Below are positions 18,206 through 37,732 of a DNA stretch of 64,000 bases, in pieces. The DNA comes from Methanogenium cariaci JCM 10550 (GTDB lineage: Archaea; Halobacteriota; Methanomicrobia; Methanomicrobiales; Methanomicrobiaceae). The notes under the pieces are model-generated. The model made no database searches, had not been told where the DNA came from, and saw only the letters and a program-made list of their open reading frames with translations. How positions within the stretch are numbered: position 1 is the stretch's first letter; each line of letters opens with the position of its first letter. The translations under genes were made by a program, and so were the position numbers. The stretch lies in NCBI RefSeq assembly GCF_001315945.1, contig NZ_BBBG01000007.1, positions 1 to 64,000 on the forward strand, written 5' to 3'.

Positions 18206-18703
18206 TTATTCACGCCCGGATTTAGCCATATTGGTATCAGATTCGTGCATTTCACAGGTGATGAGGGAAAGAGAGAGGGAATTCATACAATACCGCGTCC
18301 CGTCCGGCAGGGGGGGCCCGTCATCAAAGACATGGCCGAGGTGTGCGCTGCACCGGCGGCAGAGCACCTCGGTGCGCACCATCCCGTGGGAATGGTCTTC
18401 ATGCCATTCGACATTATCCGGGCAGACCGGACGGGCAAAACTCGGCCACCCGGTCCCGGAGTCAAATTTATCTTTGGAAAAGAAGAGGTGGGTTCCGCAA
18501 CAGGCACACACATACACTCCTTCGTCATGGCAGTCTGCATATATTCCGCTGAAGGGTGTTTCCGTCCCTGCCTGTCGTGCAACACGATACACATCCGGAG
18601 GAAGCAGTATCCTCCATTCTTCATCCGTCCGGCGTATGACGGCGGTGCAGTAGGTCGTGCCTGCACACGCATCACATAACCGAAGGTGGTCCTCGGTTTT
18701 CAT
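18206..18703 (-). CDS. msrB: Peptide-methionine (R)-S-oxide reductase MsrB
   Basis: Reduces methionine-R-sulfoxide in proteins. [35 protein letters not shown] and the catalytic RYCMNSLSL are all present; the two CxxC pairs bind zinc. The N-terminus carries an extra cysteine-rich segment [10 protein letters not shown] before the domain. Start 18703 follows GGTAGGTG; the longer reading to 18817 is unlikely. 165 aa, no frame break, although the G/C run near 18312 gives a GPP that may be one residue long. It lies 10 bp upstream of the RibD-type gene. Last chromosomal gene before attL. Confidence 0.92.
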
Positions 18704-18838
18704 GCACCTACCTGTCCACACTCCCTGAAATACCTTGCCGACATGCAGCGGGCAAGACTTTTTTCTATCCTGACGGGGTGCGGGAGAACAAGAGAGCGAA
18801 AAATACCTTGCGCTCATCAGAATGAAAATGAAAGAATA

Positions 18839-18857
18839 AGTGCCTCAGGCCGGATTT
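18839..18857. repeat. attL core (19-bp direct repeat)
   Basis: AGTGCCTCAGGCCGGATTT, identical to 37657-37675, and equal to the last 17 bases of tRNA-Phe plus two flanking bases (reverse complement). It marks the left junction of the element. Confidence 0.93.
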
Positions 18858-18864
18858 CAGCAAA

Positions 18865-18878
18865 TAAGTATAATGCCC
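18865..18878 (+). repeat. Left arm of att-flanking inverted repeat
   Basis: TAAGTATAATGCCC, the exact reverse complement of 37636-37649. It lies 7 bp inside the left att core, as the other arm lies 7 bp inside the right core. Placement suggests recombinase or accessory-factor binding sites. Confidence 0.75.
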
Positions 18879-18913
18879 TAAATTTTTATATACGATATAA
18901 TCCCACACTAATT

Positions 18914-20210
18914 ATGGAAAAAAATGCCTTTCACGCAACGCGGCACCAGTATCAAACCTATGAAACACGGGCCATAGAAAATGCAATCAGTGATGGCAGA
19001 ATTTCCAAAAAGGAAGCCGGATACATCCGGGAATTCCTATCCGAGACCAATTCTCAGAAAGACCTGTCCGCGCAACGAAAGTTTAAACTCGCATCCAATC
19101 TCTGCACCGTCTCGCAATACACACCAGATATTGATGAGATGACAATAGGGGACCTATACGAGGCCGTGGAGAAGATCAAGAACGGGATATCTTCGCGGGG
19201 GAAGCCATACACACGGAACACTCAAAGCGATCTCTTACGCATCCTGAAGCGGTTCACTGTATGGTTGATTGAGAACGGGTATAGTGATCTTAATTTGAAG
19301 AAAGTGCAGAAGATCAAGATCCCGGCATACTCTACAAAGACCAAATCCGATAAGGACATCCTCAACGAGGAAGAGGTCCTTAAAATCATATCCGCTGCAA
19401 AAAGCATTCGATACCGTGCACTATTGAGCGTGCTGTTTGAGGGCGGATTCAGGATACAGGAATGCGCCGACATGAGATGGCAGGATGTCAGGTTCACAGA
19501 CTGGGGGGGCCCGCATCCGCACCGATGGCAAGACCGAGAAGGAGCGGGCCGTGCCGATCATTATGTATTGTGACACCCTCGCAAAGTGGCAGAGTGAACA
19601 CCCCGATCCGTCACCTGAAAACTATGTGTTTTTGAACCTGCACAATAAGCCACTGAAATATCAGAACACCCTTAAGACCATCAAACAATTTGCAGAGGAG
19701 GCAGGTATTGAGCGGAAGATCACGCCGCATATCTTCCGGCATTCACGCATTACATTTTGCCTGAGAAACGGCATGCAGGAGACACTTTTAAAGAAAACCT
19801 TCTGGGGGAATGAAACCACCGACATGCTGAAGATATACAGCCACCTCACACCGGGCGATGCAGACGAGGCATTCGCACGCATGGCAGGGGGGGTAGAGCT
19901 GCCGGAGGATGCCGGGGGGGAAGAGTCAAAGCTAAAGCCGGTGCAGTGTGACCAGTGCCATTATGTGAACGCACCCGGTGCCCGGTTCTGTAGCAGATGC
20001 GGTAAGGGACTTTCTGAAGAGGCCCGGGCAACCGTAGAGGGTGTCAAGGCAGAACTGAGAGACATCATGACAGAGGACCCGGTCACCCTCCTGGAAGCAG
20101 CACGGGAGATCGAGGCAATAAAGGCAGGCCGACAGGGTGGAGCAGTGCAGGCCCCGGAACAGGCCCGCCCCCCTGCCAAAGATTCCACTGAGACCGACAG
20201 CGCCGCATAG
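18914..20210 (+). CDS. Tyrosine recombinase (integrase) with C-terminal zinc ribbon, one frameshift
   Basis: Site-specific recombinase for the tRNA-Phe att site. An N-terminal SAM-like core-binding domain (about residues 30-140) is followed by a catalytic domain with Arg in GGFRIQECADMRW (near 178), HIFRHSR (His-x-x-Arg, near 272) and Tyr in DMLKIYSHL (near 306). A zinc ribbon CDQCHYVNAPGARFCSRCG follows at about residues 345-363, then an acidic helical tail. The G7 tract 19503-19509 breaks the frame between FTDWG and GARIRTDGKTEKERAV. Start MEKNAFHATRHQYQTYE at 18914; about 432 aa. It reads away from attL into the element. Confidence 0.93.
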
Positions 20211-20541
20211 ACGGGCACATCACCCCCCCTCTCTTATTCTCACTTCTGTTACACACGTGGACCCAGTGCGTCACCAAACTCTCGGAGAAAATGGACACCG
20301 AAAAAGGTCAACACATACATTACCTACACCCTCGCCCTGGGTCTCTCTTGGAGAAGAAGGGGTATGCCCTGCCGGTGAGTCCCCCCCAGCTGCAGGTGAC
20401 GGCCCGGCTCCGTCTATGATCTAACGCAAGAGAGGTAGGCATGGAAGATGGTGCGGACGGCCGGGCAATGTCAATAAGTCCTGCGCCCGACTCTCTCTAT
20501 TTATGAAGGTCCATAATAAAGAAAATCCAAACCACAATATT
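20211..20541. other. Gene-free stretch, 331 bp
   Basis: No reading frame with family resemblance, tRNA or long repeat seen. Contains C/G tracts near 20222 and 20384. Possible leader of the small membrane protein gene that follows. Confidence 0.5.
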
Positions 20542-20832
20542 ATGCCATACGACTGGCTAACCCTCCTATACCCTGCTGAATGGTGCTTCCGGTTCTTCAT
20601 CGCCTCGATTCTCATTCTCATTGTCTCACACTTATCTACCCCCCCGATATCTCAGATTGGATACTGGACAATGCCAGCTGCTGCAATCGGTGCATTCCTA
20701 CTCCAGCTAAGGTTCTGTACTTGTTTACAACCGGTAGAATGCCAGAAAGTGAATGAAGAACGGGATTTCGTTGTAGAGGAGAACCAATTTAGGTTCTCCC
20801 ATAATACTCAAAACAGATTAAAGGAATTCTGA
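20542..20832 (+). CDS. Small membrane protein, 'MPYDW' type, copy 1
   Basis: 96 aa from ATG 20542 (upstream in-frame codons to 20503 are less likely). MPYDWLTLLYPAEWCFRFF is followed by two hydrophobic segments (IASILILIVSHL and WTMPAAAIGAFLLQ) and a polar tail of about 40 residues. A second, damaged copy starts at 23281 with MPYDWPALLYPDEWCF. The shared opening and spacing to the membrane segments show common origin. Family not recognised. A strong hairpin lies 10 bp after the stop. Confidence 0.6.
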   Translation: MPYDWLTLLYPAEWCFRFFIASILILIVSHLSTPPISQIGYWTMPAAAIGAFLLQLRFCTCLQPVECQKVNEERDFVVEENQFRFSHNTQNRLKEF

Positions 20833-20842
20833 ATATTTATAT

Positions 20843-20882
20843 GAAATTCTACCCTGTCTCTTATGAGATAGGATAGAATTCC
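20843..20882. terminator. Long inverted repeat after the small membrane protein gene
   Basis: Arms 20843-20860 and 20865-20882 pair over 18 positions (15 Watson-Crick, one wobble, two mismatches) around a TTAT loop. It begins 10 bp past the stop codon. A transcript-end structure or a small RNA stem is likely; no T-run follows, so simple intrinsic termination is not proven. Confidence 0.55.
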
Positions 20883-21402
20883 AGTGATAATTATTACTAA
20901 AAGCCCTGTGAACCCGTAAATATGCACTATCACGTAAGTCTCCTGTTAATACGACTTTGACGGTAGTCACCGTGATCATTATGATAACTCTTAAATGTGA
21001 CAGAACATAATATATTTTGTCGAAATTATTTGTTCTATCAATAATGGGTGCACTCGTTGCACCTGCTGTTGGTTTTTGTTATCTAATTCTTTTAATTACC
21101 TCCTTATACAATATCTATTGTTTTTTCAGACGAATAATTCTTCTTTACCGTTCCTGTTTCGGGGGGGAATGTGGGTAACCTTACACGATAAACCATACTT
21201 ATTACGCACCACATAATTCTCCTCCTTTTCACCTCCGGTATTTAGATACTATACACCCCCCCGGTAAATAAAGGCAAGTCAGAATTAATGAAAGTGGGAT
21301 CATAGTGACTTCATGTGGGTAAGTTAAAATTTAATCGCCAACATAACCCCCTCTTAAACACTTTCGGAATAATTATCATTCCTCTTTCATAACAAGACGT
21401 CT
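20883..21402. other. Gene-free AT-rich stretch, 520 bp
   Basis: No supported reading frame. AT-rich, with a G7 tract at 21161 and a C7 tract at 21256. It may hold promoters for the flanking DUF2513 gene, but no box could be assigned with confidence. Confidence 0.5.
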
Positions 21403-21759
21403 ATGCAACGCAACTATGATCTCATTCGAGAAATTCTATTAGAAATAGAGAGCCGCCGGGATCTTCCCTTTACTCAGCTTTATCTTCAAGATGACAGCAA
21501 CAAGGATGAAGTTAGTTATCAGGTGAAAATAATGGCTGATGAAGGATTGATTGATGCTTCTTGTGACCGTACTTATGGACCATCCTATACCTATATTTAT
21601 GTAATAAAAGACCTGACACCAAAGGGCCATGACTTCATTGATAACTGCCGCGATGACGGTATTTGGAAGAAAGTTAAGGCTGAACTTGGAAATAAAATCT
21701 CATCTGTTCCCTTCGATATTATCACAGCACTTCTTATCAAGTATGCTATGGGCGTTTAA
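21403..21759 (+). CDS. DUF2513-like protein
   Basis: 118 aa beginning MQRNYDLIREILLEIESRRD, followed by YQVKIMADEGLIDASC and LTPKGHDFIDNCRDDGIWKK. This is the layout of DUF2513, a winged-helix-like family found mainly in phages and mobile elements. Function unknown; a DNA-binding role is inferred from the fold. No frame break. It faces the FRG-domain gene across 128 bp. Confidence 0.75.
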   Translation: MQRNYDLIREILLEIESRRDLPFTQLYLQDDSNKDEVSYQVKIMADEGLIDASCDRTYGPSYTYIYVIKDLTPKGHDFIDNCRDDGIWKKVKAELGNKISSVPFDIITALLIKYAMGV

Positions 21760-21887
21760 TTAGAGAGTGAGAACGGGTTGAGTAAAGGTATTATTCACCC
21801 TTCTTCAACCTCCATGTTTAGTTATCCTAGTGAGAGTATTTTATGGTATTTAGACCAGCAGGATATCATAAAATAATTAGATTTGAA

Positions 21888-23024
21888 TTACTTGTGTGCC
21901 AAATCTTCCAATTTTTTCTTCCCCCCCTTTAATTGCGATAAAAGGAAGGCAGCGTATGGATTGTCTTTTCTTATTGCAAGTGAACGGCTCAGATCATTTA
22001 TTGCATCATCAAACTGACGCATTTCAGTATATGCCTTCGCACGTAAGATAAGGGCAGTAGCACTATCAGGTTCAATATCAATAATCCGATCGCATATCTC
22101 AATTACACCCTGATAATCTTCTAAGCAATCTTTTATATTGGCACAATAAATGAGAGCTTCGTATGAAATAGGATTTATTTTTAGGGCTCTCTCCACATAT
22201 TCCAGTATTTCTTCTAAACTCGATTGCTCAGTGACATACATTGATTTTGCTTTATTCATCTGTTCCAAATATTCTTTGGAGTAGTATGGTTTTTCACAGC
22301 TATTTTCTGATGCAAAGCCTACCATGTCATTAAAAAGAGTTAATCCACTGATATCATGCAAATCCCGTAATTCAAATAATATTTTGGATTTTTGATCTGC
22401 ACTAATTCTAACCTTTTCTATCGATTCATCGATTATTTCAGGTTTTCCAAAAATGAATAACGAATGCTGTTTAGGGATTCTATTATTCAAATCTGAAGGT
22501 TCCCACACCCAAAGAAAATCCCCCCCCATTTCTTCCAAATATTTTTTAAATTTCCACCCAGAATTATCGCCATTTATTGGTTTGAATTTTTCAGGTTCAG
22601 ATGTATTAATGATATGTACAACACCGTCATTATCCGGATCATTTATAGATGCAAAATAAAGTGCAACCAAAGAAGAATACGTGAAATCGATTAATGCAGT
22701 TGCAGCACCATTATGCTGGAGTTCTGCCAAAAGCTCAAGGTCTTCCAGAGGGATGTTTCCTTTCTTATCATACCCCTTAAGTTTTGCATTAGAAATCAAA
22801 TCACAGTTATAGTCATTGAATTTTTTCAGCGCATCTTCACCTAGTTGATTATAACCAAGTCTTCTTGCAGCTGTGGAACTAATAGGATGTGAAATATCGC
22901 CCTGACCTCGGAAGGCAAATTTTCCATATTCGCATATTGTTAATTCTGTTATCTTTTCGAGATATTCTGTAACATTTATTACAGCTTTAGACCATTCTGA
23001 AGACTCAATTTCCTGTTCGGTCAC
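21888..23024 (-). CDS. FRG-domain protein with C-terminal TPR repeats
   Basis: 378 aa. The name-giving FRG motif is in YGKFAFRGQGDISHPISST; ELQHNGAATALIDFTYSSL and YFASINDPDNDGVVHIINT complete the domain (about residues 15-200). From about residue 265 to the end are two or three TPR-like repeats (LEYVERALKINPISYEALIY, RAKAYTEMRQFDDAINDLSR). FRG proteins are common in phages, plasmids and defence islands, usually with unknown substrates. One C7 tract gives EEMGGDFLW and may add a Gly. On the element it is divergent from copy 2 of the small membrane protein. Confidence 0.82.
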   Translation of the reverse strand: MTEQEIESSEWSKAVINVTEYLEKITELTICEYGKFAFRGQGDISHPISSTAARRLGYNQLGEDALKKFNDYNCDLISNAKLKGYDKKGNIPLEDLELLAELQHNGAATALIDFTYSSLVALYFASINDPDNDGVVHIINTSEPEKFKPINGDNSGWKFKKYLEEMGGDFLWVWEPSDLNNRIPKQHSLFIFGKPEIIDESIEKVRISADQKSKILFELRDLHDISGLTLFNDMVGFASENSCEKPYYSKEYLEQMNKAKSMYVTEQSSLEEILEYVERALKINPISYEALIYCANIKDCLEDYQGVIEICDRIIDIEPDSATALILRAKAYTEMRQFDDAINDLSRSLAIRKDNPYAAFLLSQLKGGKKKLEDLAHK

Positions 23025-23280
23025 ATGATCACATCCACATTCTTACTGCACAAGGTTGAGTACAACATACAATAGAACTGACAAGCAAATGAATAGAACT
23101 GACAAGCAAATGAAAACTCCGTACCGGGTTCACTCCTTCAACCGGGCAAGTTTTTCGATATCATCGGCAACCTGTTCTTTCCAAATAATATTCACCTGCC
23201 AGTAGTGACAAAAACTCCACACACCCCCCCGTGGCAAATTAATGAGCATCCTTTTTGGTCATCTCCCTAAAAACAACATC

Positions 23281-23460
23281 ATGCCATACGACTGGCCCGC
23301 ACTTCTCTATCCTGATGAATGGTGTTTTTCGATTCTTCATCACGGCAGTGATTGTCCTTCTAATAACGGATTATCCTCTCCGTTTGACTTGGTTACATAT
23401 TGGATATTGGTTGCTGCAGCTCTGGTGGCCTTTATCCTTCAGGCGCAGGTCCCGTTATAA
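23281..23460 (+). pseudogene. Small membrane protein, 'MPYDW' type, damaged copy 2
   Basis: Starts MPYDWPALLYPDEWCF, like copy 1 at 20542. Read with T5 at about 23327 the frame is lost; with T4 it continues RFFITAVIVLLITDYPL and HIGYW, matching copy 1 (RFFIASILILIV, QIGYW). A second shift near 23405 is needed to reach AAALVAFILQAQ, the counterpart of AAAIGAFLLQ. Either a decayed duplicate or two base-call errors. About 60 aa if intact, without the polar tail of copy 1. Confidence 0.6.
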
Positions 23461-23654
23461 TTTGTAACCAGAAAGATATTGGAAAAATAAATCTTGATGG
23501 CCATCCACAGTGACCGGTCATGATCCCTTCTTCATACCCAGTTGCCATGTAACTTCCACACGGTTATTTCAGATATTGTATGGCCCCTACAGAGGTACTT
23601 TACAGTAAAAAGCAAAAAGTATCAACCATCTGACAATCATTTGACAAGCAACCT

Positions 23655-24568
23655 TCAAGTTTTATTCACATTTTTCTCAAGTAGCTCAATAGTTGATTTG
23701 TAACAGTAAAAATACAAAGAATGCCGTTCCAACTCCGATTGTAGAGTTTCAACTAACTTTTTACAGTCAATATTCTCATACAATTCTGGAAGTATCTCAT
23801 CAAACAAAATTCTCATAGTTGCTATTTCAGATAATTGATTATTTTCCGTGCCATACAATTCTATCATATCGACAGAATGTAAAATGAAAGACTCAATCAT
23901 TGATTTATTTAATTTCTGATCAAACTCATCAGGATGATCATTAAAATATCCTATCTCCTCTGGCCTCTGATTGATATATTTTAACAAAATGTCTGCACCA
24001 CCATATACTATATCTGCAAAACAGGCCCCCCCTACATCCTCAAATCTCTTTAATGCTTTAAATGCCCCCCCCGTGTTAGGTCTAAATCCATAAAATCACA
24101 TTCTTCAAGGTATGCATACTTTGGATCATCTTCGATATCCACTAAGGATTGCAATTCCTCCCAAAAATGTGATCTTGAGCATGCAGAAATGAACGATGAA
24201 TATTTCACAAGCGGTTCCAGACCAACCATAATATCCGCCGTGACTTTTTTATCCCACCCTCTTTGCATAAATAATTCACTGTATGATAACAAAGCTCCTG
24301 CAAGGGTCGGAGAATAATCCCTTCTTTCACTATTTTTGCAATTTCTTACAATTTCTGATTTTAGATACCCACTATTTTCAAGAATTTTCAGCCAATTTAC
24401 TGCGGATCTTTGTTTGATTTTTTCGCCGTCCACTTCAAGCTTTGTGCTCCAGACAGGTTTACCTGAGAGAACAATTTCAATCATTGCACGAGTCAATTTT
24501 TTCCTCATGGCAGGGGGGGTCACATCATGGAAGTTAGGATGTGGAATTTTAGGGAGTTTTGTTTCCAT
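23655..24568 (-). CDS. Winged-helix-like protein of unknown function, frameshifted
   Basis: About 303 aa once tracts at about 24065 and 24028 are corrected (joining LDLTRG to AFKALKRFEDVG and ADIVYGGADILLKYINQRP). The N-terminus has a probable winged helix (KKLTRAMIEIVLSGKPVWST, SAVNWLKILENSGYLKSEI, DYSPTLAG), and the C-terminal half is acidic and helical. It could be a regulator of the accessory genes. No catalytic motif recognised. Base composition is AT-rich like the FRG gene and unlike the chromosome. Confidence 0.6.
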
Positions 24569-24688
24569 TTATTTCACCTTCTCACGGCATATTAGCAATT
24601 TCACAAACAGCAATAATACTAGTAGCAAATATTCTAGTATTGTAGAAAATCCTATTGCTATATGTAACTTCATGAGATAATAAAATTT

Positions 24689-25066
24689 ATGCGAATGGTG
24701 ACAAAGAGCGGACAGGTCTACGAGCAAACCTGTATACACGTCCCTCTTGAAATGAAACAGCAGGCTAAGGAAGCTGGCATCAATATGGCAGAGACTTTCC
24801 GGAATGCCCTTGCAGCAGAGATCAAGAACAGAAATCACCCCCGCCCAGACCCAGCAAGATCAGAACGGGGGGGGAGCAGCCTCAGACAGAGGTGCAGTCT
24901 AATGTCTACATCTACCCATATGAAACCCGTGGACAATGCCAGGCCACGACTGATAAGCCGTGATGTCCTAGAGGCACTTGATCCGCTATACCGGGCAACG
25001 GCGAACGTGCTGATCAGGCGTGGTGAGTGGGCAATAATCGATGAGACAGAAGAGGCGGTCAGATGA
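24689..25066 (+). CDS. Ribbon-helix-helix/CcdA-like DNA-binding protein, C-terminus uncertain
   Basis: The N-terminus QVYEQTCIHVPLEMKQQAKE followed by AGINMAETFRNALAAEI is a beta strand plus two helices, as in CcdA-like antitoxins and plasmid copy-control repressors. The G7 tract at about 24867 leaves the C-terminus ambiguous: as read it ends LIRRGEWAIIDETEEAVR at 25066; one base fewer gives SNVYIYPYETRGQCQATTDK and an earlier stop. No toxin partner is obvious nearby. A partial second copy of the RGEW region lies near 29500. Confidence 0.5.
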   Translation: MRMVTKSGQVYEQTCIHVPLEMKQQAKEAGINMAETFRNALAAEIKNRNHPRPDPARSERGGSSLRQRCSLMSTSTHMKPVDNARPRLISRDVLEALDPLYRATANVLIRRGEWAIIDETEEAVR

Positions 25067-25151
25067 AAGTAGGGTATCAAATGACACCCCCCCGCAACAC
25101 TCTCCATTTTATTCCGTGTTCATATAACCTTATCCCTGCTGAGGCAATGGC

Positions 25152-25397
25152 GTGACCAGAACGGATGCAGGCCCATGCACCCCCCCCTCCGATGATGTGG
25201 TGACCAACTACAAAGGCGTGAAGATGACACGAGGGGGGGAAGCTAACCGTTTACGTGCAGCAGACCCAAATGGCCTAGACATTGTGCCTGTGGGGGGGAC
25301 ACCGCCAAAGGTTCCGTGCCGGGCCACCACCAAACCACCAGAACCGCCGGAAGGAGGGGGGGACGACCCAACCCCAGAAGATAATCACCCGTTGTGA
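25152..25397 (+). CDS. Small Pro/Gly-rich reading frame before the primase gene
   Basis: 81 aa from a GTG at 25152, rich in Pro, Gly and charged residues, no recognised domain. Its TGA overlaps the GTG start of the PrimPol gene (GTGA), the coupling seen for real genes in this element. Two or three G/C tracts make the internal frame unreliable. Low confidence. Confidence 0.3.
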   Translation: MTRTDAGPCTPPSDDVVTNYKGVKMTRGGEANRLRAADPNGLDIVPVGGTPPKVPCRATTKPPEPPEGGGDDPTPEDNHPL

Positions 25398-27500
25398 TTC
25401 CGCCGCAGCTGCACGGGTGCCGGTTCATCCTCTTGAAACCAAAGAGAAAGGAACCACTTGAATACTGGAAGGAACAGAACTACGCACATGACTCGCCCCG
25501 CCTTCTTCAGCACATCAGGCAGGGTGGTAATTATGGCGTGATGGTGACCGGTGATCTTTGCGTACTGGATGCTGACAATGTCCCCGCCCTCTATGACGAA
25601 CCCTTCTTTTCTGATCTGATTGAGAATTCCTTTATGGTCAGCACCGGGCGGCACCGATACCGGGAGCCCACATCTATTTCAGATGCCCGGACCTGCCACC
25701 AATAAAGACAGTCCTGAAAACAGCAACAGACAAAGACCTGGGTGACGTCCGCGGGCCTGACTCTATGACTTATGTCGTCGGCCCCGGTTCAATCCACCCG
25801 GACACCGGGAAGACCTACGAGATCACCAACGACGTGGCCCCCCCGTCACCGTGCCTCTGGAGAAGGTGCGGGCATTCATTGACCGGTACGACGTCAAGAA
25901 GAAGGCCAAGACAAAGCGGACCGCAGAGGCCCGCACCGACGCCCCCCCACAGAGGCACAATTCAGCGAATATATCGGAAAGTCTGGGATTGAAGGTAACG
26001 GACTTCCTGATGCCTGAAAACCCACAATACCGAGGAGATGAGATCATCGGGAACCATCCCATTCATGGAGGGGATACCGGCACCAACCTAAGCGTAAACC
26101 CCCCCCATAAGAATGAATGGAGGTGCTGGCACCACGAGAGTGGAGGCGGGCCACTGGAGGCCCTCGCTGTGGCAGACAGAATTATCGACTGTTCGGAAGC
26201 CGGACCCGGATGCCTGGAAGGACATTGGCCCGCGGTGTTCGATGCACTCGACCGCCGGGGGGGATACGGTCCACAGCGTGAGAAGATGAACCGGGAACGA
26301 AAGCAGCAGGCCACCGGGCCAAGAGGCCCCATCCCTGCACGTGCAACAGCCGAACCAGAACCAGAAGGGGCAGACCCCGAAGTCTTGGCAGAGGCGGAAC
26401 GGGTGCTCACTGAAGAGGATCCCCCCCTCGCCTACTTTCTGGAAGTGTTCCATACATCACACGTGGGTGATGATATTGTGGCCAAATGCTGCTATTTATG
26501 TGCTGCCTCTCGTGTGGTGGCGACCTCTAAGGGATTACATGTTCTTACTATCGGCCCTTCTGGGAAAGGGAAGAGCAGCACGTATGATACGGTTCTTGAG
26601 CAGATGCCCGACAGGTGTAAGGTTGAAGGTAGCCTTTCTGATAAGGCGCTGTTATATCACAACCACCCTGAAGGTTCAATCATTGTTCGTGATGACAAGG
26701 AGATGAGTGACGCATTGCAGGAATTGTTCAGGGGGTGCCACATCGGACATTAGGAAACCGTATAAGCACCATACGGTTTTGAACGGCAAACCAACAACCC
26801 ACATTTTTCCCGCTCGGTGTGTCTGGTGGTTGGCAGCAACCGAAGATACCACAGACGATCAGTTCCATAACCGGTGCTTACAGCCATACGTAGACGACAG
26901 CAAAGAGGCAGATCGGGCATTTACTGAACATTTTCTCAGGAGTCTGGCAGAGGGTGCCAAAAAAGATCCACGGTTCACCGTGTGCCGATACATGTGGGAA
27001 ATGATCTCTTCTGAGGTGCTACCAGTATGGGTGTGGTTCTCAGAAGCGATCAAATATGATACCGAATCAAACCGACGGAACACCACAATATTTGCGGACA
27101 TGATCCAAGCCGTCACCCGCATGAGATACAAACAAAGGAAGATTGATCCAGACCGCGGGATAGTTGCAAGCATGGATGACTACGCCACGGCATATGAAAT
27201 TTATTCGGCGCTGTTTGGTGATGAGGGTTCACAGGGAACACAGCTCACACCGGACGAGGCCCGCGTACTGGGTGCAATGTATAAGATGACAACAGACAGG
27301 GTGGAAAAAATCACATTAAATTCACTGGTGAGTAAAACCGGCATTACCACCGATAAAGTACGCCGGGCCATACACGGGAGGAAAGACAGGAACCACAACC
27401 CCGGACTTCTCAGTAAATGCCCTGCGCTAACATTTGAGAAGAAAAACACATCAATACCCGGAACAGATGGGGGGGTAACCCGTTCAACCACGAAAAATGA
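25394..27500 (+). CDS. Primase-polymerase/helicase replication protein, frameshifted
   Basis: About 700 aa. (1) AEP primase-polymerase domain: metal motif VMVTGDLCVLDADN, then after one lost G near 25650 STGRAPIPGAHIYFRCPD and VGPGSIHPDTGKTYEI, as in bifunctional primase/polymerases. (2) A zinc-finger-like HGGDTGTNLSVN..WRCWHHESGGGPLEA module related to CHC2-type primase fingers. (3) P-loop ATPase with GPSGKGKSSTYDT and acidic SIIVRDDKEMSDAL. (4) C-terminal winged helix (LNSLVSKTGITTDKVRRAI). Tracts near 25840, 26100, 26417, 26733 and 27471 shift or lengthen the frame; the end is GNPFNHEK at 27500. Replication initiator of the element by inference. Confidence 0.85.
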
Positions 27501-27946
27501 ATACACTTGACGAGAGAGCATATATTGCATGGAACAGCCATGGCGGCATTTCCCTTATACCGGACATCATAGAAAAATCCCTCGTTGCCCACATTGCCCG
27601 CACTTTTCCCACACTTTGCCCGCAAATGGGCAAAGCGATAATCGGCACGTATGGCGCTTCTTTTCCTAATCTAACCAATATAATAATAAATAATAATTAT
27701 AATAATAACACTTTGCCCAACAAGGAGATGGAGAGAGAAGACAAATACCAAAGGGAGATCTGCACCCGTCTCACTCCATCTCTCTCACAGTCTGGGAATG
27801 GGCAAAGCGAACCGGAGGGACACCAAAAAACAATGCCAACCCCCCCACAAAATCAGAACCGGGAGCCAATACAGGCACGCCCACTCGTGGGCAACGCAGG
27901 GAAAAGCCGGGGGGGACAGTGGGCAAAGCGACCACCGGCGAGGTAA
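27497..27946 (+). CDS. Uncertain reading frame overlapping the candidate origin
   Basis: Begins with an ATG overlapping the primase stop (ATGA): MNTLDERAYIAWNSHGGISL. The middle is an Asn-rich run produced by an AT-rich DNA tract, and the rest has no recognisable domain. The same DNA holds five GGGCAAAG/CTTTGCCC repeats, so the frame may be partly or wholly incidental. Only the first 30-50 residues look protein-like. Confidence 0.3.
   Translation: MNTLDERAYIAWNSHGGISLIPDIIEKSLVAHIARTFPTLCPQMGKAIIGTYGASFPNLTNIIINNNYNNNTLPNKEMEREDKYQREICTRLTPSLSQSGNGQSEPEGHQKTMPTPPQNQNREPIQARPLVGNAGKSRGGQWAKRPPAR
27614..27928. other. Candidate replication origin: iterons around an AT-rich tract
   Basis: The 8-mer CTTTGCCC or its complement GGGCAAAG occurs at 27614-27621, 27628-27635, 27711-27718, 27800-27807 and 27921-27928. 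The first two form a perfect 8-bp inverted repeat with a 6-nt spacer; the three forward copies extend to TGGGCAAAGCGA. Between copies two and three lies about 45 bp of almost pure A/T (27668-27710). Repeats plus an unwinding-type tract directly behind a replication initiator gene are the usual design of plasmid origins. Confidence 0.6.
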
Positions 27947-28598
27947 AACCATGAACCTTGAGATCCCGCCGGTGATGCTGCCCGCATGATAAACGGGAGA
28001 AGAGAGCGAAACACCGTTTGTCTTCTCGGGAAGTGTCCTGCACCTAATGAAGAGTGGGACACCCCTTCATTCACATGCAACTTTTAGAGAGGCACCCTCC
28101 CATAGCATGCTATGATTGTTCTCTATTTTTAAAATAATTGATTCAATTAAAAATATCAGAATCATTCAATTCCAATCAAAAATTTGTAGCCATTAAAATG
28201 AATCATATGTTCAGGTTCATCTGCAATCCAGACCGCCAGGCAGATCCACGGACCATGAACATCAACCCGTATGTATTTCACCGAGTGCCTACGGGACGTG
28301 CTCACCTTCGATGAGTAAAGCCTTACAGAATTATTTTTGAGGTGGTTGATATGACATGTGATTCTAACGCTATTCTATTGCCTCCCAGAGAAGTGAGCCT
28401 ATGATCCACATTTCGGACACCGTAAAAAAGGGACGAGGATTGATAAGCCCTATCCTCTTTATGTCTTTGAGGAATGCTACCCCCACGGCAATTTAACATT
28501 TACCGGGCACTGATGGGGGGGAGACTCAAGCCTTAAAACAGAAAGGGACAAATAATAATGACCAATAATTTACTATTACAGCCTCCTTCGGGCTGGCA
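27947..28598. other. Gene-free stretch, 652 bp
   Basis: No supported gene. It holds a perfect 14-bp palindrome (28101-28114), an AT-rich segment after it (28115-28170) and a G6 tract near 28514. It separates the replication half of the element from the degenerate region and restriction genes. Confidence 0.5.
28101..28114. promoter_or_regulatory. Perfect 14-bp palindrome, possible operator
   Basis: CATAGCATGCTATG, followed by an AT-rich segment. Perfect dyad symmetry of this length suits a dimeric DNA-binding protein such as the ribbon-helix-helix-like product of this element. No binding evidence. Confidence 0.4.
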
Positions 28599-28826
28599 GT
28601 GATAGTTGCGATAGTTTCTCCAGTCATCTATAGATGGATTTTTAAAACGAATTTTAAGAATAATTTAAAGAGGATTTTGAAGAAAATGAAAGCAAATATC
28701 GTTAAGACAGGGATACTTGAAATAGTCGAGAGTATTGCAATTAGAACAATGTTCAAATTAATTTTTGAACATTATGATGTGGCTGTTGGTTCATCCCAAC
28801 TATCCCTGCTAAAGAACGGCTCTTAA
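28599..28826 (+). CDS. Small basic hypothetical protein
   Basis: 75 aa, IVAIVSPVIYRWIFKTNF as a possible membrane segment followed by a Lys-rich helix (KNNLKRILKKMKANIVK). No family recognised and no clear ribosome binding site. May be real because A/T-rich composition with low stop density persists across it; low confidence. Confidence 0.3.
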   Translation: MIVAIVSPVIYRWIFKTNFKNNLKRILKKMKANIVKTGILEIVESIAIRTMFKLIFEHYDVAVGSSQLSLLKNGS

Positions 28827-29911
28827 CTATACTTTTCTTTTACAATCCCTATTTATTGCATTCATCAAACATGAGCATCTTCCCAAACCTAAAAGTGCCT
28901 CAGGAAGACAAATACAAAATATAAGATTTCATCCATGATATGTTCTCATCATTGCTGGATGGTGACAAACATGGAAAGTGGACGGATCGACGAATATGTA
29001 ATGCTACGCTGATGCGTTCGGGATTGAACCGGAAGAGGTGTGAGCAGATGATACTTACCACCGCCCCCCCCTGGATGATGTCACGATAACTGCATATGTA
29101 ACCAACACCGCCGCCTTTGAATGCAAAGCCAATATGCTGGAAGAGATCCGGGAAGACCTCCACGACCAGATCCGCACCCTACGAGAGGAGGCCTGCGGGA
29201 TGCAGACAGGGACGACAACACGGGCATTGAAACAGTAATCAGGAAGATCATGGCAGGCGATCCCACCCGCAACTCTGACTGTAACTCTGGCTGTGTTCAC
29301 ATGAATAATGAGGTGCATCAGCAGGCCGAAGACACCGCCAGAACCTTGGCGGGCAATGCGAGCAGATGCAGGCACCACAGTCCCTGCTGCACAGGAGACT
29401 GACCGCCCCCCCCGGAAGACCGTAAGACCTACAATGCACTACTCAAGCGGGCCGACCCCCCCGTCACCGCCATTTGTGCACAGCTCATGGTGAGCCGTGG
29501 AGAGTGGATCCTCTGCGGATGAACTCACCGAGTGCACCACCAAGACCAGCAGCGCTGGCGGTCCAGAGACCCCCCCGCCGGAGGAGACGACCCGAACCGA
29601 AGGGTCTGACGATTGAAAGGTGGATATTCAAAAGGGACTCTTCATTAACTGAAGCAGAATGCCAAGAACGGGAAGCCATTTTCCCTCAATCAACACGTTG
29701 TTGAACGGTTGATGGCGTGGGATCAACTAAATAAGACGTTTTCTGTATGAGATTTCTGTCTCATTTTTCTTTTCTGTCGATGTTGAAGTATTGTTGATGA
29801 CTATTGAGAAATATCAAACAGATTCCATAAGGTTGATGTATGGTGCCAAACGAGTCAATTATTAACTTGAATTAATTTTTCATTCAATATCTAACCAAAA
29901 CGGAGTGACGC
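28827..29911. other. Degenerate region upstream of hsdR
   Basis: Fragments in several frames: DDVTITAYVTNTAAFECKAN with EEIREDLHDQIRTLREEA (29060-29240) and ALLKRADPPVTAICAQLMV with SRGEWILCG (29436-29521). The last resembles the tail of the gene at 24689 (NVLIRRGEWAII). C/G tracts near 29065, 29405, 29457 and 29570 break any frame. Likely remnants of a duplicated small-gene cassette; 28894-28904 also matches 11 bp of the att core. About 200 AT-rich bases before hsdR probably hold its promoter. Confidence 0.45.
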
Positions 29912-32774
29912 ATGGATCTCAATGAAAATCAGACGCGGAAACAAAAGATTGATGTCCGGCTCAAAGAGCAGGGCTGGGATGTTGACAGCCGTTCGCATGT
30001 CATCCCGGAGGTTGATACAAAGCAGTCTGATTTCAATGCCTGTGACTACAAGACCGTTGACGAAACGCTCAAGAACGATTTTGAAAGTAAATATGCAGAT
30101 TATCTCCTGCTGGACAGTCTGAGAAATCCTCTTGCTGTAATCGAGGCAAAACGGACATCAAAAGACCCCCCCGAAATCGGTCAAAAGCAGGCCGAACAAT
30201 ATGCCGATGATATCAAACGCCAGACGGGCCGGGATGTCTTCATTTTTCTCACAAACGGATATGAAATAAAGTTCTGGGACAGGCAGCGTTATCCTCCCCC
30301 CCGGATGGTGAACGGGTTCTACGCCCGCAAAGACCTTGAGCGGCTTCGCTTCCAGAATGAACAGGTTCAGCCGGATACACCGAGAGGAGTCAATACCGAT
30401 ATTGTTGACCGCCCGAAGAGTATCGAGAATGTCAAACGGATAGTGGAGCACATCCAGAAGGGCCACAGGAAAGCGTTGATTGTGATGGCTACGGGCACGG
30501 GGGGGAAGACCCGTGTCGCAATGGCAATTATCGATGCTCTCATGCAGGAGAACCGTGCTCACCGGGTGCTCTTCCTTGCAGACAGAAAGGCACTTCGTGA
30601 TCAGGCATGGAACAAAGGGTTTCAGGAGTTCTTCCCGCAGGAGGCGAAGGACAAAATCCTGCACGGGAATTTCAACAAGGAAAAGCGGCTCTATGTCTCC
30701 ACCATCCAGACATTTCAGGAAATTTATACCCAGAAAGATGAAAACGGTCAGTATCTCATCTCACCCGGTGAGTTTGACCTCATCATCTCTGACGAAGCAC
30801 ATCGCAGTATCTATAATAAATGGCGGGATGTCTTCACCTATTTCGATGCCATACAAATTGGGCTGACTGCAACGCCCGCAGACCTTGTTGACCGGGATAC
30901 CTTCCGGTTCTTCGGGTGTGATAACCAGGCACCAACCGCTCTCTACTCATATGAAGAGGCGGTGAAGGACGGTATCCTCTGTGACTTCCGCAAGAATATC
31001 ATGGGTGCTCAGACCCACTTCCAGATTGAAGGGGGGGTGAAGCCCTCAGACCTGAGCGAGACCGAACGGAACCGTCTCATTGAACAGGGCATCGACCCGG
31101 ATGAAATTGATTTTGATGGCTCTGTTCTGGAGAAGAAGATTGCCGTGAAGGGAACGTCTGAAGCAATCGTCCGGGAGTTCATGGATAATTGCCAGATGGA
31201 TGAGACCGGCACCCTTCCTGCAAAGACCATCTTCTTTGCCATATCAAAGAAGCATGCGAACCGCCTTCATGAGGCGTTCAATGACCTCTATCCTGAATAT
31301 AAGGGGGGGAATCTGGCACGCATCATTGTCTCTGAGGACTCCCGTGCACAGGATCTCATCAAAGACTTTGAGAAGGAGTCATTTCCCCGTGTTGCCATCT
31401 CGGTCGATATGCTGGACACCGGCATTGACGTGCCGGAGGTATGCAACCTTGTCTTTGCAAAACCCGTCTTTTCCAAGATCAAATTCTGGCAGATGCTGGG
31501 AAGAGGGACACGGGCGGATTCGGTATGCAAACACCGTGACTGGCTCCCGGACGGGAAGAAGGAGTATTTCAAGGTCTTCGATTTCTGGAATAATTTTGAT
31601 TACTGGAACATGAACCCAGGAGGAGGATAAACGAACCCATTGAAGCGATTACCAGCCGGATCTTTCTCCTGCGGGTCAAACAGCTTGACCACCTGATACA
31701 GGCAGGAGATGAGGAACATGCTGCGGTTATTCGGGCAAAAATCGAGGATGACATCCGTGCTCTCCCGTCAGATTCTGTAAGTGTGCGGGAACACGAGCAG
31801 GAAATACAGAAAGCACTCTCTCCAAAGTTGTGGGACAATGTTGCCATTGACCCGATTGCGTATCTGACATCCCATATGATGCCCCTGATGCGCTACCAGA
31901 TGGGTGTCAATCTCAAGGAAGCGTCCTTTACGATCAAGTCTGAGCGTCTTACGCTTGCTGTCCTAGAAGGAAATGACAGGGAAATAGAACGGCAGAAGAA
32001 CGCCATCGCTGAAATGGTTGACCTTCTCCCGCGTAATCTTGAAAAAGTCCGGCAGAAGGAAGACCAGCTGGATGACGTGCTCTCCCGGTCGTTCTGGAAG
32101 GGTCTTTCGTTCGAGGATACCCGGATGCTTGTGTCTGATATCGCACCGCTGATGAAGTACATGTCAAAGGAAACTCCCCCCCGATGATTGTTATCGACAT
32201 GGGAGATGTGATTGAGAAACGCAGCATCTGGGAGGTGAATGAGGATGCCCCCCCTCCCTATGTCACCGCATTTGTCAAGAAGGTGGAAGAGCGAATCCGC
32301 GAGATGGCGACCGAAGACCCTGTCATCCAAAAGATTGCAAACGATGAAGCCATCACCGAAACCGACCTCACCCGTCTGGAAGAAACCCTCACGGATGCCG
32401 GGGGGGTGAATATCAATGAGGAAGTCCTGCAGAAAGGCTACCGGCAGCCACGGGGGGGGACGCTTGTTGATTTTATCAAATCAGTCCTGGGACTCTACCG
32501 GGCACCCGACCCGAAAAAGAAGATCGATGAAGCGTTCCAGACCTTTATGGCTGAGAACAACAAGCACTACACCGCCGACCAGCTCCACTTCATCAGGACG
32601 ATTCAGACGGTATTTATGCGCAAAAAACACATAGATATGACAGATCTCTGGGACGCTCCGTTCACCAATTTTGGCATCAACGCACCGCTGCCGATGTTTG
32701 ACGAGGGCGACCTCAGGGCGTTCATTGGCATATGCCAGGGACTGGAACAGGAATTGTATGTTGCGGAGGCATGA
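29912..32774 (+). CDS. hsdR: Type I restriction enzyme, R (translocase/nuclease) subunit, frameshifted
   Basis: Motor and nuclease subunit of a type I system, about 954 aa. An N-terminal nuclease domain (YLLLDSLRNPLAVIEAKR with E-x-K) is followed by SF2 helicase motifs: P-loop read as ATGTGGKTRVAMAI (one Gly more than ATGTGKTR), DEAH in LIISDEAHRSIYNKWRD, GLTATP and MLGRGTRAD. A base lost at about 31627 makes an early TAA after NPGG; translation resumes as NEPIEAITSRIFLLRV. The tract near 32180 breaks the frame once more. The C-terminus ends GICQGLEQELYVAEA. Start follows GGAGTGAC. First gene of hsdR-hsdS-hsdM. Confidence 0.92.
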
Positions 32775-32783
32775 GGAGAAGTG

Positions 32784-33972
32784 GTGAAGAAGGAGTTGCC
32801 TGAGGGGTGGGAATGGAAGAGATTGGGGGATATTGGAGTATATATTAATGGCCGCGCTTTCAAGCCTCAGAGTGGACAAAAACTGGCATGCCAATTGTTA
32901 GAATTCAAAATTTAACAAACCAATTTAAAGAATTCAACTATTACAACGGCGAAGCTGATAGTAAATATTTTTTGAAAAATGGAGACATCTTAATATCGTG
33001 GTCTGCCTCTCTGGGCGTGTTCCTTTGGGAACGAGGAGATGCTGTATTGAATCAGCATATTTTCAAAGCTATTCCTGATTTAAATATTGTTGATAAGAAT
33101 TATTTCATTTATGCAATTCGGAATATTCTCGAAGATATGAAAAAATTCAGCCATGGATCAACAATGAAACACATAGTGAAATCAGATTTTGATAACACGA
33201 ATATCCCTATTCCACCCCCCCTCGAAACACAGCGCAAGATTGTTGACATCCTTGAAAAAGCAGAGGCGACTCAACGCCTTCGGGCAGAGGTAGATGCACT
33301 CATACAGAAGCTGGTGCAGAGCGTTTTTCTGGATATGTTTGGTGATCCTGCCTCTAATCCATACACTTGGAAAGAATGTTCCTTCGATAAAATTCTACTT
33401 AAAAGTCCTCAAAATGGACTCTATAAGTCATCCGATTTTTATGGGGGGGATGGAACCCCAATCATGCGAATTGATTCATTTTATGATGGCAAAATATATG
33501 GACTCGAAAATTTAAAGCGTTTGAAATGTTCTGAATCTGAAATAGAGAGATATGGTTTGGTAATTGAAGATATTTTAATTAATCGTGTCAATAGCATAGA
33601 GTACCTTGGAAAATGTGGTTTAATTGAAATTTTGTATGAACCACTGTTTTTGAATCAAACATTATGAGATTGAATATCGATACTGAAATAGCAGATCCTC
33701 GCTACATTACTGCATTATTGTGCACACAATATGTCAGAAACCAAATTATGAGTAAGGCCAAGAAAGCAGTAAATCAAGCTAGTATTAATCAAGGGGGGGA
33801 TGTAAAATCCTTGGAAATTCTGTTGCCACCCATTGAATTACAAAATAACTTTGCAAAAATTATTCAATTAATGGATGTTCTTCACAAGAAAATAATTCAC
33901 TCTGAGAAGAATTCTGCTGATCTTGTGAGGTACCTAATGTCCAAAGCTTTCATTGGAGAATTGACTATATGA
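32784..33972 (+). CDS. hsdS: Type I restriction enzyme, S (specificity) subunit, frameshifted
   Basis: Target-recognition subunit, about 396 aa with two half-domains. ELPEGWEWKRLGDIG opens TRD1; the central conserved region is PIPPPLETQRKIVDILEKAE; TRD2 follows (GDPASNPYTWKECSFD), and the distal conserved region is LLPPIELQNNFAKIIQLM. Lost bases near 32865 (before SEWTKTGMPIVRIQ) and 33642 (giving EPTVFESNIMRLN) break the frame; the tract near 33795 adds a Gly (NQGGDV for NQGDV). GTG 32784 follows GAGGAG. TRDs are AT-rich and vary between strains, so the target cannot be read off. Confidence 0.9.
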
Positions 33973-35497
33973 AACTAGCCCCCCCGAATTAAAATCAAAG
34001 ATTGACACCCTCTGGGATCGCTTCTGGAGCGGCGGGATGTCAAACCCCCTCCAGTCCATCGAACAGATGTCTTACATCATCTTCATGAAGCGGCTGGAGG
34101 ACATGGATGTCGTTGAGCAGAACCGTGCACGGGCACGGGATATCGAATATACGTCCGTCTTCGAGGGAAAGGATGCGTGCCGGTGGTCGAACTGGAAGCA
34201 CTATCCTGCCGAGCAGATGCTCGTGCACGTCCGTGATGTTGTCTTCCCGTTCATCAAGAACCTGCACAGCGAGGAGAAGACACTCTTCACCCGGCAGATG
34301 CGGGATGCAGTCTTCATCATCCCGAAACCGTCCCTCTTGCAGGAGGCGGTTGCCCTTATCGATGAGATGGATATCACCGCCCAGAACCGTGATACACAGG
34401 GCGACATCTACGAGTATCTTCTCTCCCAGCTCTCCACTGCAGGTATGAACGGACAGTTCCGGACACCCCCCCGGCATATCATCCGGATGATGGTGGAACT
34501 GGTTGAACCGGATGTCAATGACCGTATATGTGACCCTGCCTGCGGAACGGCAGGATTCCTGATCAACGCCTATGAATATATCATCCGGAAATACACCAGC
34601 CCCCCCGATATGCTGGAGGTTGACAGTGAGGGCGAATACCACAATCTCATCGGGGGGGATAATATCACTGACCAGCGGCATTGGGAGAAGCTCTGGAGTG
34701 ATACGTTCTATGGATATGATTTTGATTCCACGATGGCCCGCATCTCGCTCATGAACATGATGCTCCACGGGATTAAGGCACCACAGATTGAGCAGAAGGA
34801 TACGCTCTCCAAGCTCTACAATGAGGAGGAGCGGTATTCGGTGGTGCTTGCCAATCCTCCGTTCAAGGGGGGGAGTATCGATAAGAGCGATATCAGTGAC
34901 ATTCTGAGCCTTCCAACGACAAAGACCGAACTTCTGTTTGTGGAACGGATGATTCACCTCCTGACGATTGGCGGGCGGTGTGCGGTGATCGTGCCGGATG
35001 GCGTTGTGTTCGGGAGTTCAAAGGCGCATAAGAAACTCCGGCAGATGCTCCTTGAGGAGAACCAGGTCGAAGGTATTGTCTCCATGCCATCCGGTGTCTT
35101 CAGACCGTATGCAGGGGGGGTTTCCACCGCTGTGCTTATCTTTGCCAAGGGTGGAGCGACTGAGAAGGTCTGGTTCTATGATATGGAGGCAGATGGTTTC
35201 TCACTGGATGACAAACGGACGCTCATTGACGGAAAGGGTGACATCCCTGATATTATTGAGCATTTCAGGGGCCGGAGAGATGAAGTGCCTGAAGACCGGA
35301 AGGGCAAGTGCTTCTATGTGCCGTTTGAGGAGATCAAGGAGAATAATTTCGACCTTTCAATTTCGCGGTACAAAGAGATTGAATATGAAGAGATTGAGTA
35401 TGACCCTCCTGAAGTGATTATTGAGAAGATTGAGGGTATTGAGAAGCAGATATTGGTGAATCTTGATGAGCTGCGGGAATTGTTGAAAAATAGTTGA
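33969..35497 (+). CDS. hsdM: Type I restriction-modification methyltransferase, M subunit, frameshifted near the start
   Basis: N6-adenine methyltransferase, about 509 aa. The ATG at 33969 overlaps the hsdS stop; a C7 tract at about 33979 then hides the first 22 residues (KLAP, ELKSKIDTLWDRFW), so the clean frame begins at MSNPLQSIEQMSYIIFM. The N-terminal recognition domain is followed by SAM motif I DPACGTAGFLINA and catalytic NPPF in VVLANPPFKGG. Several tracts add single Gly or Pro residues. HsdM is last, an order R-S-M unlike the commoner R-M-S or M-S-R. Confidence 0.94.
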
Positions 35498-36008
35498 TTC
35501 CCAATATTTTTTATCATACTTAGGATATCGTCAAAATCCAGTAAACCATGCTATCACTGCCAAAACTGTTCCAATTCCTCTGAAAGCAGCCCCCGCATAT
35601 ACTACATATGAGCCACATGGTGCAGTGTCGCCCTGCATTCAGAACATGGATGTGATATACGACTCGTTGACGGTCTGGATCGTGTAGGGCGACAAGGTCC
35701 TGGCATCAAAGACGACCGGGGGGGTGGGATATGGATGTGTGGTAGTGTCCGCGAAGGTACAGAGTTCCTTATAAGCGAAGGTCTGCCTTTCTAATATATA
35801 ATATCTCACCGAAACAGACACCCTATTTTTCCAGATGGAACTCTGAGACAGACACAAAAATCTAAATCCAAAATCCCAAGGATCATTACTTTGATTTTTA
35901 GTTTTTCTTCCACCAAACCCAATCCAAGAATGCGAAGATAAGGATGTTCAGGGGGAACCGACACTTCACATTGCTAAATGCTATATGCCGATACATAGAC
36001 CACTGATC
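35498..36008. other. Gene-free stretch between hsdM and the Orc1/Cdc6-like gene, 511 bp
   Basis: A 72-codon minus-strand frame (35639-35857) has no recognisable features and a G7 tract inside it; not called as a gene. Likely intergenic, with promoters for the gene at 36009. Confidence 0.45.
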
Positions 36009-36878
36009 ATGGGAATATTCAAGGACAAAACCGTGTTATCCATCCAATACACACCCGAGAAACCCCCCTCGGCAGAGAGGAAGAAATACGTCATATGGCA
36101 ATGGCATTCAAACCTTACACAGCGGGGGGGAGCCACCCCCCCGCAATATCCTCATCTACGGAATGGCAGGGACAGGGAAATCCACGGTGACTGAATATGT
36201 TCTGCGGAAGTATCTCATTGCCCTCAAAGAACAAGACGTCTCCAATGTCAGGGTGGTCAGTCTCACGGTGGACAACTGGCCTGCATCCAAGGTTCTAACC
36301 GGTATTCTCCGGGAACTCAATCCGGATATGCACGTTTCCAGCAGAGGGTATTCTATCCCAGAATATTTTAACATGATTTGGGACACTCTCAACAAACAAG
36401 GACTTTCGATGATACTGGTTCTCGACAAAATTGATCTAATGAAAAAACCTGATATCCTCTACGAATTCTCGCGGGTCGCTGAAGGTGGACACCTCAAAGA
36501 CAATCGGTTTGTGTCCGTTGTGGGGATGCTGAAAAATGTAAGATTTACACACTTCCTCGACCCGGCAATTCTGTCGTCGTTCGGTAGCCTGTCCATGATC
36601 ACCCCCCCTCATACACCAAGGAGCAATTGACTGAAATCCTCGAAGATCGGCGAGTAGCATTCCATGAGGGAGTCCTGGAAGAACCTGTTATTCCGATGTG
36701 TGCTGCATACTCTGCAGAGGCTACTGGCAATGCCAGGGAAGCAATTGATATATTAAGATGTGCAGGAGAAATAGCAGAGAAACAAGGAGAGGATACGGTG
36801 ACACAAGAGCATGTCTTGCTCGCAGTGGAAGAATATGAGTGTGATTTCCCGTCATTCAGCGGAACGGTGGATGCCTGA
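36009..36878 (+). CDS. Orc1/Cdc6-like AAA+ ATPase, short, frameshifted
   Basis: Origin-recognition/helicase-loading ATPase family. Start MGIFKDKTVLSIQYTPEKP; after correction REEEIRHMAMAFKPYTAG, Walker A in YGMAGTGKSTVTEYVL, Walker B in SMILVLDKIDLMKK, and an AAA+ lid (ATGNAREAIDILRCAGEIA). Tracts at 36064-36069, about 36126 and 36138, and 36601 break the frame. Corrected length is about 290 aa, well below the usual 370-420: the C-terminal winged helix that binds origins is missing. An element-borne, possibly truncated copy; initiator function uncertain. Confidence 0.8.
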
Positions 36879-37635
36879 TGCTTACCGAACCACATCTTTT
36901 AGATCTTCCATGAAATTGGGAGTAAAAACCTCGATATGTACCTCAGTAGTTGGCTAAATTTAAGGCCAGCAGACCATTGTGAACGTGAGATAAATTCTTG
37001 CAAATTTACAGTAACATGATTCCAATTATCTTCACAGGAATTGTCTTGCAGGAAGACTAAGGCAGACAACACCGCTGTCAGCCCCCATAGGACTCCACCA
37101 GACGCACCAACCATGCAACACACGGGCCAATCCCGCCCCCCCCTGGCCAACAAAATATACTACACGAACTCTACACTTCGCAAAGGCATCCATGCAGCAC
37201 CACGTGAGAGCCATTTCAGGAGCACGCCCAATTGTTTATCGTCTCACACACAGGAGACAACAGCACGCTGCTAAATCGATGTGAGAGCAATTCACAGATT
37301 CCGTCCGGAAATCGGACGTATGAACGCCCGATAAGAGCAAGTTCAACCACCAGCGCACACAAAAACGTGTGTTCGCCATAGCAGGGATGCAGGGTAATGA
37401 CCATCCGATGAATGAACACACCAATTTCACTCAATCACGCAGCAACACAGGGCGTATAGCGGCACGTGAGTTCATGGCGCCGCATGACATAAGTATCTAT
37501 GAGATTGTAAAAATACGGCAACACAGGCGCAATATGACGACTGAAAACACACGTCAAACATACAAAAAGGGGGGGTGCCAGAATAATTTTCATCCTTCTG
37601 AAAAAAATTAGCGCAACGCACTTCTTTTTCCCATT
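36879..37635. other. Gene-free stretch before attR, 757 bp
   Basis: Short frames here lack any family resemblance. Contains an inverted repeat CGTCCG-GAAAT-CGGACG at 37302-37318 and two near-identical words, GCAACACAGGGCGTAT (37442) and GCAACACAGGCGCAAT (37518). Could hold binding sites for the neighbouring Orc1/Cdc6-like protein or recombinase accessory sites; nothing decisive. Confidence 0.45.
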
Positions 37636-37649
37636 GGGCATTATACTTA
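37636..37649 (+). repeat. Right arm of att-flanking inverted repeat
   Basis: GGGCATTATACTTA, exact reverse complement of 18865-18878, ending 7 bp before the right att core. Confidence 0.75.
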
Positions 37650-37656
37650 GGCGCGG

Positions 37657-37675
37657 AGTGCCTCAGGCCGGATTT
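37657..37675. repeat. attR core (19-bp direct repeat)
   Basis: AGTGCCTCAGGCCGGATTT, identical to 18839-18857, overlapping the 3' end of tRNA-Phe. Integration here leaves the tRNA intact. Confidence 0.93.
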
Positions 37676-37732
37676 GAACCAGCGACAACCAGATCTTCAG
37701 TCTGGCGCTCTCCCAATCTGAGCTACTAAGGC
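37659..37732 (-). tRNA. tRNA-Phe (GAA)
   Basis: 74 nt. Acceptor strand GCCTTAG pairs with CTGAGGC (one G-U), discriminator A, anticodon stem CCAGA/TCTGG around CTGAAGA, T-loop TTCAAAT. CCA is not encoded. The 3' 17 bases serve as the integration site of the 18.8-kb element. Confidence 0.97.

Follow-up and report, generated by a model that had tools for sequence, protein, structure and literature searches.

A gene cluster of the methanogen Methanogenium cariaci JCM 10550 places two small membrane-protein genes on either side of a DUF2513 gene and a gene that joins an FRG domain to TPR repeats (FRG-TPR). Do these genes form one defence system, or does a single defence gene travel among neighbours? 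We analysed the surrounding 64,000 nucleotides of contig NZ_BBBG01000007.1 (assembly GCF_001315945.1), hereafter the window, together with related genomes. Our results favour, with a probability of about 0.7, a stand-alone FRG-TPR abortive-infection effector on an element integrated at tRNA-Phe, with the DUF2513 and membrane genes as neighbours rather than subunits.

An integrative element at tRNA-Phe and its accessory segment

The first-pass annotation had placed the cluster in a mobile element, and the borders of that element can now be given. An 18.8-kb integrative element (18839-37675) is inserted in tRNA-Phe. It is bounded by a 19-nt direct repeat, with attL at 18839-18857 and an exact second copy, attR, at 37657-37675 within the 3' end of the tRNA gene (37658-37732, minus strand). 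A tyrosine integrase gene (18686-20210, plus strand), read as two ORFs in different frames (18686-19573 and 19485-20210; PF00589 in both, E 1.7e-7 and 1.1e-14), lies at the left end. Five of six Methanogenium relatives (G083, G111, G037, G079 and G123) have an empty site, in which the left flank lies directly beside the right flank. In G083 and G111 the overlap between the two flank alignments is precisely the 19 nt, while 120-155 nt beside the junction have no alignment in G037, G079 and G123. The sixth relative, Methanogenium sp. MK-MG (G055), carries a related element at the same tRNA-Phe site. Thus, the locus has the features of a tRNA-integrated element, namely a direct repeat ending at the tRNA 3' end, an integrase at one end and an empty site in relatives.

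The element resembles tRNA-targeting archaeal integrative elements with a tyrosine integrase and a primase: the integrase lies beside the att site, the target is a tRNA 3' end, and a primase gene and defence cargo are present. It differs in that many of its genes are broken in this assembly. Among these is the primase-like replication gene (25851-27510, plus strand; ORFs 25851-26753 and 26707-27510, matches at E 3e-19 and 6e-11), whose frames cluster with a 972-aa primase-like protein; the G055 element carries a D5-type primase. A small CcdA/CopG-like protein (24689-25066, plus strand; PF07362 at E 0.0018, below the cut-off) is common to both elements and belongs to the core, and type I restriction-modification genes (part of HsdR, HsdS and HsdM) occupy 29912-35497 on the plus strand. 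The window element is unremarkable but clearly delimited; it carries defence genes, among them a stand-alone FRG-TPR gene, and exact borders are now available for such an element of a methanogen. A search of an open library, judged by title, found no relevant literature on integrative elements in Methanomicrobiales. The G055 element also encodes a phage tail tape-measure protein (PF10145; L162 4610-7357), a hint of a viral origin.

Comparison with the G055 element delimits an accessory segment at 20351-24690, with approximate borders. Window positions 20195-20350 correspond to L162 1-157, and the two elements align again from the CopG-like gene onward (about 24690), so that the interval from the integrase end to this gene is about 170 bp in G055 and 4.3 kb in the window. 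The extra 4.3 kb holds both membrane-gene copies, the DUF2513 gene, the FRG-TPR gene and a broken gene (23655-24568, minus strand), whose ORFs 23655-23987 and 24050-24568 are in two frames and adjoin close to a run of C; one of these pieces matches PADLOC PDC-S02 weakly. Since the segment is extra relative to the G055 element, the label "accessory" proposed for 20542-23460 is right, although the segment is wider than that interval. The AT-richness reported for its genes was also confirmed, with a GC content of 0.35-0.38 between 21 and 24 kb and of about 0.50-0.56 in the surrounding sequence. A tandem repeat (23071-23114; 21-nt spacing, 23 nt shared) lies immediately upstream of the FRG-TPR gene.

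The FRG-TPR gene and the adjacent DUF2513 gene

The FRG-TPR gene (21888-23024, minus strand) encodes a 378-aa candidate stand-alone defence effector of the PDC-S15 type. Pfam recognises FRG (PF08867) at E 1.7e-14, with 54.9 bits against a cut-off of 25, and the second domain is a clear TPR array (E 2e-8). The protein matches PADLOC PDC-S15 at E 1.8e-23; PDC entries of PADLOC are candidate defence genes. These matches support the earlier description of a defence-like enzyme fused to TPR, as a candidate read from sequence.

Residues invariant in 14 FRG proteins of the order include R39, G40, H104, T109 and D113. The full-length model has a pLDDT of 83. Because full-length fold searches were filled by TPR proteins, the FRG domain was modelled separately (pLDDT 78.6, pTM 0.79). 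A Foldseek search with this model lists ART-fold proteins in each of its top 12 rows, every one of them weak (E 0.11-0.4), with no single match standing out. A second structural comparison retrieved ART toxins and tRNA phosphotransferases (Tpt1) at Z 6.2-6.0; its best row (Z 6.2, 105 aligned residues, rmsd 3.1) is below the stand-out level when taken singly. Rhs toxins, which we take to be ARTs, are among the structural matches. The FRG domain thus tentatively models as an ADP-ribosyltransferase-like fold, and the excerpted text of PMC9503650 assigns the FRG family to the ART superfamily as a possible NADase. The window protein shares with PDC-S15 and PF08867 the F-R-G motif, the conserved H104, T109 and D113 and, tentatively, the predicted ART-like fold. 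It differs in its C-terminal TPR part and its archaeal host, and its enzymatic role is putative. FRG-TPR is probably an NAD-consuming gene of antiviral type and a candidate for defence.

FRG-TPR most probably works alone as an abortive-infection effector. Its C-terminal TPR part would sense or bind a cue of infection, whereupon the FRG domain at the N-terminus, with its predicted ART-like fold, would consume NAD+ or modify a target, so that the cell or the invader is stopped. The DUF2513 gene and the two membrane genes would be fellow cargo on the accessory segment and not subunits, as their distribution suggests.

The nearest neighbour is the DUF2513 gene (21403-21759, plus strand), whose identity was confirmed at E 2.7e-23 in Pfam; it encodes a 118-aa protein (PHROG 585), and a search of the open library for DUF2513 by name found no paper. 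The two genes are only 128 nt apart, tail to tail, which would be consistent with a toxin-antitoxin-like pair with the membrane copies as bystanders. However, the two genes are convergent and form no operon. The window is the only place where DUF2513 is near FRG, and in G055, G083 and G085, which have both, the two are on different contigs or more than 600 kb apart. We consider such a pair very improbable.

The flanking membrane genes and FRG genes

The two membrane genes had been described as twins, and they are indeed homologous (blastn E 1e-8, 80% over 69 nt); a profile of what we call the YPxEW family matches both (E 1.2e-23 and 3.0e-10). Neither, however, reads intact. Copy 1 (20542-20757, plus strand) leaves its frame at about residue 57, and the C-terminal part of the family sequence is then found in a different frame. 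Copy 2 (23281-23481, plus strand), a probable pseudogene, is shifted by 1 nt within the first hydrophobic segment, regains its frame later and contains an in-frame TAA; as read, it is without the first hydrophobic segment. As sequenced, neither copy has an intact frame with two hydrophobic segments, possibly through sequencing error. The source assembly (2.69 Mb, 52 contigs, completeness 59%) is rich in frameshifts: the integrase is in two frames, and what reads as an essential methionyl-tRNA synthetase gene is also split. Sequencing error and decay are therefore indistinguishable in the window copies, and the living genome may hold an intact version of at least copy 1. On their sequence, the window membrane genes look damaged and would be degenerate members of a lineage-specific family.

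The proteins of this family have about 70 aa and two hydrophobic segments, with Y-P-x-E-W-x-x-R-F invariant in a 21-row alignment; in three intact members that were scanned, the hydrophobic stretches are long enough for two membrane passes. Within the order, members were found in 30 of 232 genomes, as 63 rows of which 20 contain in-frame stops. Of 392 genomes scanned across the phylum, 13 have a member, and every one of these belongs to that order; a scan of genome contigs gave 13 loci that are Methanomicrobiales by title except one labelled "Euryarchaeota archaeon". No relatives were found in plasmids or in viral contigs. The family is thus lineage-specific, seen only in Methanomicrobiales in these scans. 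For comparison of neighbourhoods we used 62 rows, dropping as a duplicate row 63 (G000:C7:23324-23416), which overlaps copy 2, and leaving out a weak row in G000:C12 (E 0.51).

Could one or both of the small membrane proteins serve FRG-TPR as an anchor, a sensor or a restraint, and could DUF2513 act as a regulator? Such a functional cassette is suggested by the two family copies that bracket FRG-TPR and DUF2513 inside one accessory segment, and the first-pass annotation had proposed the membrane protein as the partner of FRG-TPR. The distribution of the genes argues against it. FRG is found in 12 of the 232 genomes and DUF2513 in 13, and FRG and the membrane family meet in three, all Methanogenium, which are 3/30 of the family-bearing and 3/12 of the FRG-bearing genomes. 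An FRG gene is within 5 kb of only 4 of the 62 family rows, and these four represent two loci. Membrane homologues are therefore mostly away from FRG, largely the pattern that the first-pass annotation had said would refute its proposal. Conversely, a family match within 5 kb accompanies two of the six Methanogenium FRG genes (those of the window and of G055:C116); of the other four, three have none on the contig and one (G083:C54) has a broken copy 8.3 kb away. FRG-TPR genes thus mostly travel without a membrane gene. FRG, DUF2513 and the membrane protein do not recur together as a conserved cassette, and the four genes of the window are not supported as one unit. They also lie on opposite strands, and copy 2 as read lacks the first hydrophobic segment. 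We regard a functional cassette as decidedly unlikely.

One observation counts against the stand-alone reading, though from two loci only: membrane genes lie near FRG above random expectation. Within the host family, 4 of 38 family rows are within 5 kb of FRG against 0.15 expected at random placement, an expectation that ignores contig ends and covers the host family only (38 of the 62 rows); the four rows come from two loci, one being the window that prompted the search.

The second locus, at a tRNA-Thr in G055:C116, would again favour a cassette, as an intact FRG-TPR gene (381 aa, no stops) ends 18 nt from a family copy. This copy, however, is broken by two in-frame stops. In G083 the orthologous tRNA-Thr copy has both of these stops and lies beside another gene, which encodes a 433-aa protein with no match in Pfam; that of G111 is intact and adjoins an AN1 zinc-finger gene. 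Because the stops are common to G055 and G083 beside different cargo, the membrane gene was most likely already damaged when FRG-TPR arrived at this locus, and FRG-TPR would have been kept without a working partner.

The same locus suggests another explanation for the twin copies, namely that they mark recombination, in which a cargo block between repeated membrane genes is swapped among elements and its contents are arbitrary. Three species have three neighbours at the tRNA-Thr, and a different site in G111 holds another copy of the 433-aa gene together with a family fragment (85% identity across 1.5 kb). Yet the similarity between the window copies does not exceed that seen with copies from other genomes, which gives no sign of a recent exchange, and only a handful of loci bear on the question. 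We give this explanation a small chance, and the stand-alone FRG-TPR effector remains the preferred reading.

Intact members of the membrane family elsewhere

Genes of the family are met repeatedly next to different cargo, in many cases on mobile DNA, and the intact members bear on the functional cassette, as some in other genera abut or overlap HEPN-TPR and SIR2 genes. In G066 an intact family gene lies 12 nt ahead of a HEPN_LA2681-TPR gene, and in G043 one overlaps such a gene by 4 nt. In G007 an intact family gene overlaps by 11 nt a SIR2 gene that matches PDC-S65 (E 1.5e-113). These arrangements are at L115 4853-6992, L116 4423-6273 and L117 6568-8402. HEPN_LA2681-TPR proteins resemble FRG-TPR in having TPR fused to a predicted effector domain, here preceded in two genomes by an intact membrane-family gene, and differ in being without FRG. 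HEPN_LA2681 was not found in the source genome. The excerpted text of PMC3710099 describes HEPN_LA2681 as fused to TPR and in operon with it.

It is tempting to speculate that YPxEW proteins act in Methanomicrobiales as small membrane partners, undescribed so far, of exchangeable effectors, with the window as a decayed or mis-sequenced case with an FRG-TPR effector; "undescribed" is said of a family without an established name by which the literature could be searched. However, of the 7 HEPN_LA2681 matches in the order only 2, from a single genus, have a family gene upstream (for the seventh, G208, this is judged by the family listing alone), and 20 of the 63 family rows are broken. We consider this quite unlikely. 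What matters here is a lineage-specific membrane family that is now defined, and its intact members beside HEPN and SIR2 effectors rather than the window's copies.

Other neighbours of the family are varied. In G115, likewise from another genus, an intact family gene follows a nuclease-LTD lipoprotein gene with a 4-nt overlap, and further members lie near helicase-DUF2290 and type I restriction genes. An N6-methylase is within 5 kb of 4 of 55 family clusters against 0.58 expected, again ignoring contig ends (simulated P 0.003, uncorrected for the several families tried). In G104 and G088 an intact family gene overlaps by 20 nt a small protein whose family is unassigned; an 85-87 aa protein overlapping the end of the family gene was observed in one genus (L048 8913-9176, L050 7447-7710 and L046 2506-2763). 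The family domain may also occur as a fusion, inside a longer frame with a TPR-like start (L124 614-1381 and L123 2979-3728).

With the same random placement in the host family, 2 of 38 family rows are within 5 kb of a primase fragment (0.46 expected) and 8 of 38 within 5 kb of an element protein that we call FIET (0.66 expected). At 20 FIET loci picked regardless of the membrane gene, the genes downstream varied, so we do not claim a fixed "effector slot" beside the FIET gene. The one FIET copy tested had no Pfam match. The protein has 170 aa, starts near "ADFIET.NTK", occurs in 27 of the 28 host-family genomes and is often within 10 kb of integrative-element primases; copies are at L115 7385-7924, L116 6665-7186, L118 5473-5973 and L119 5928-6428.
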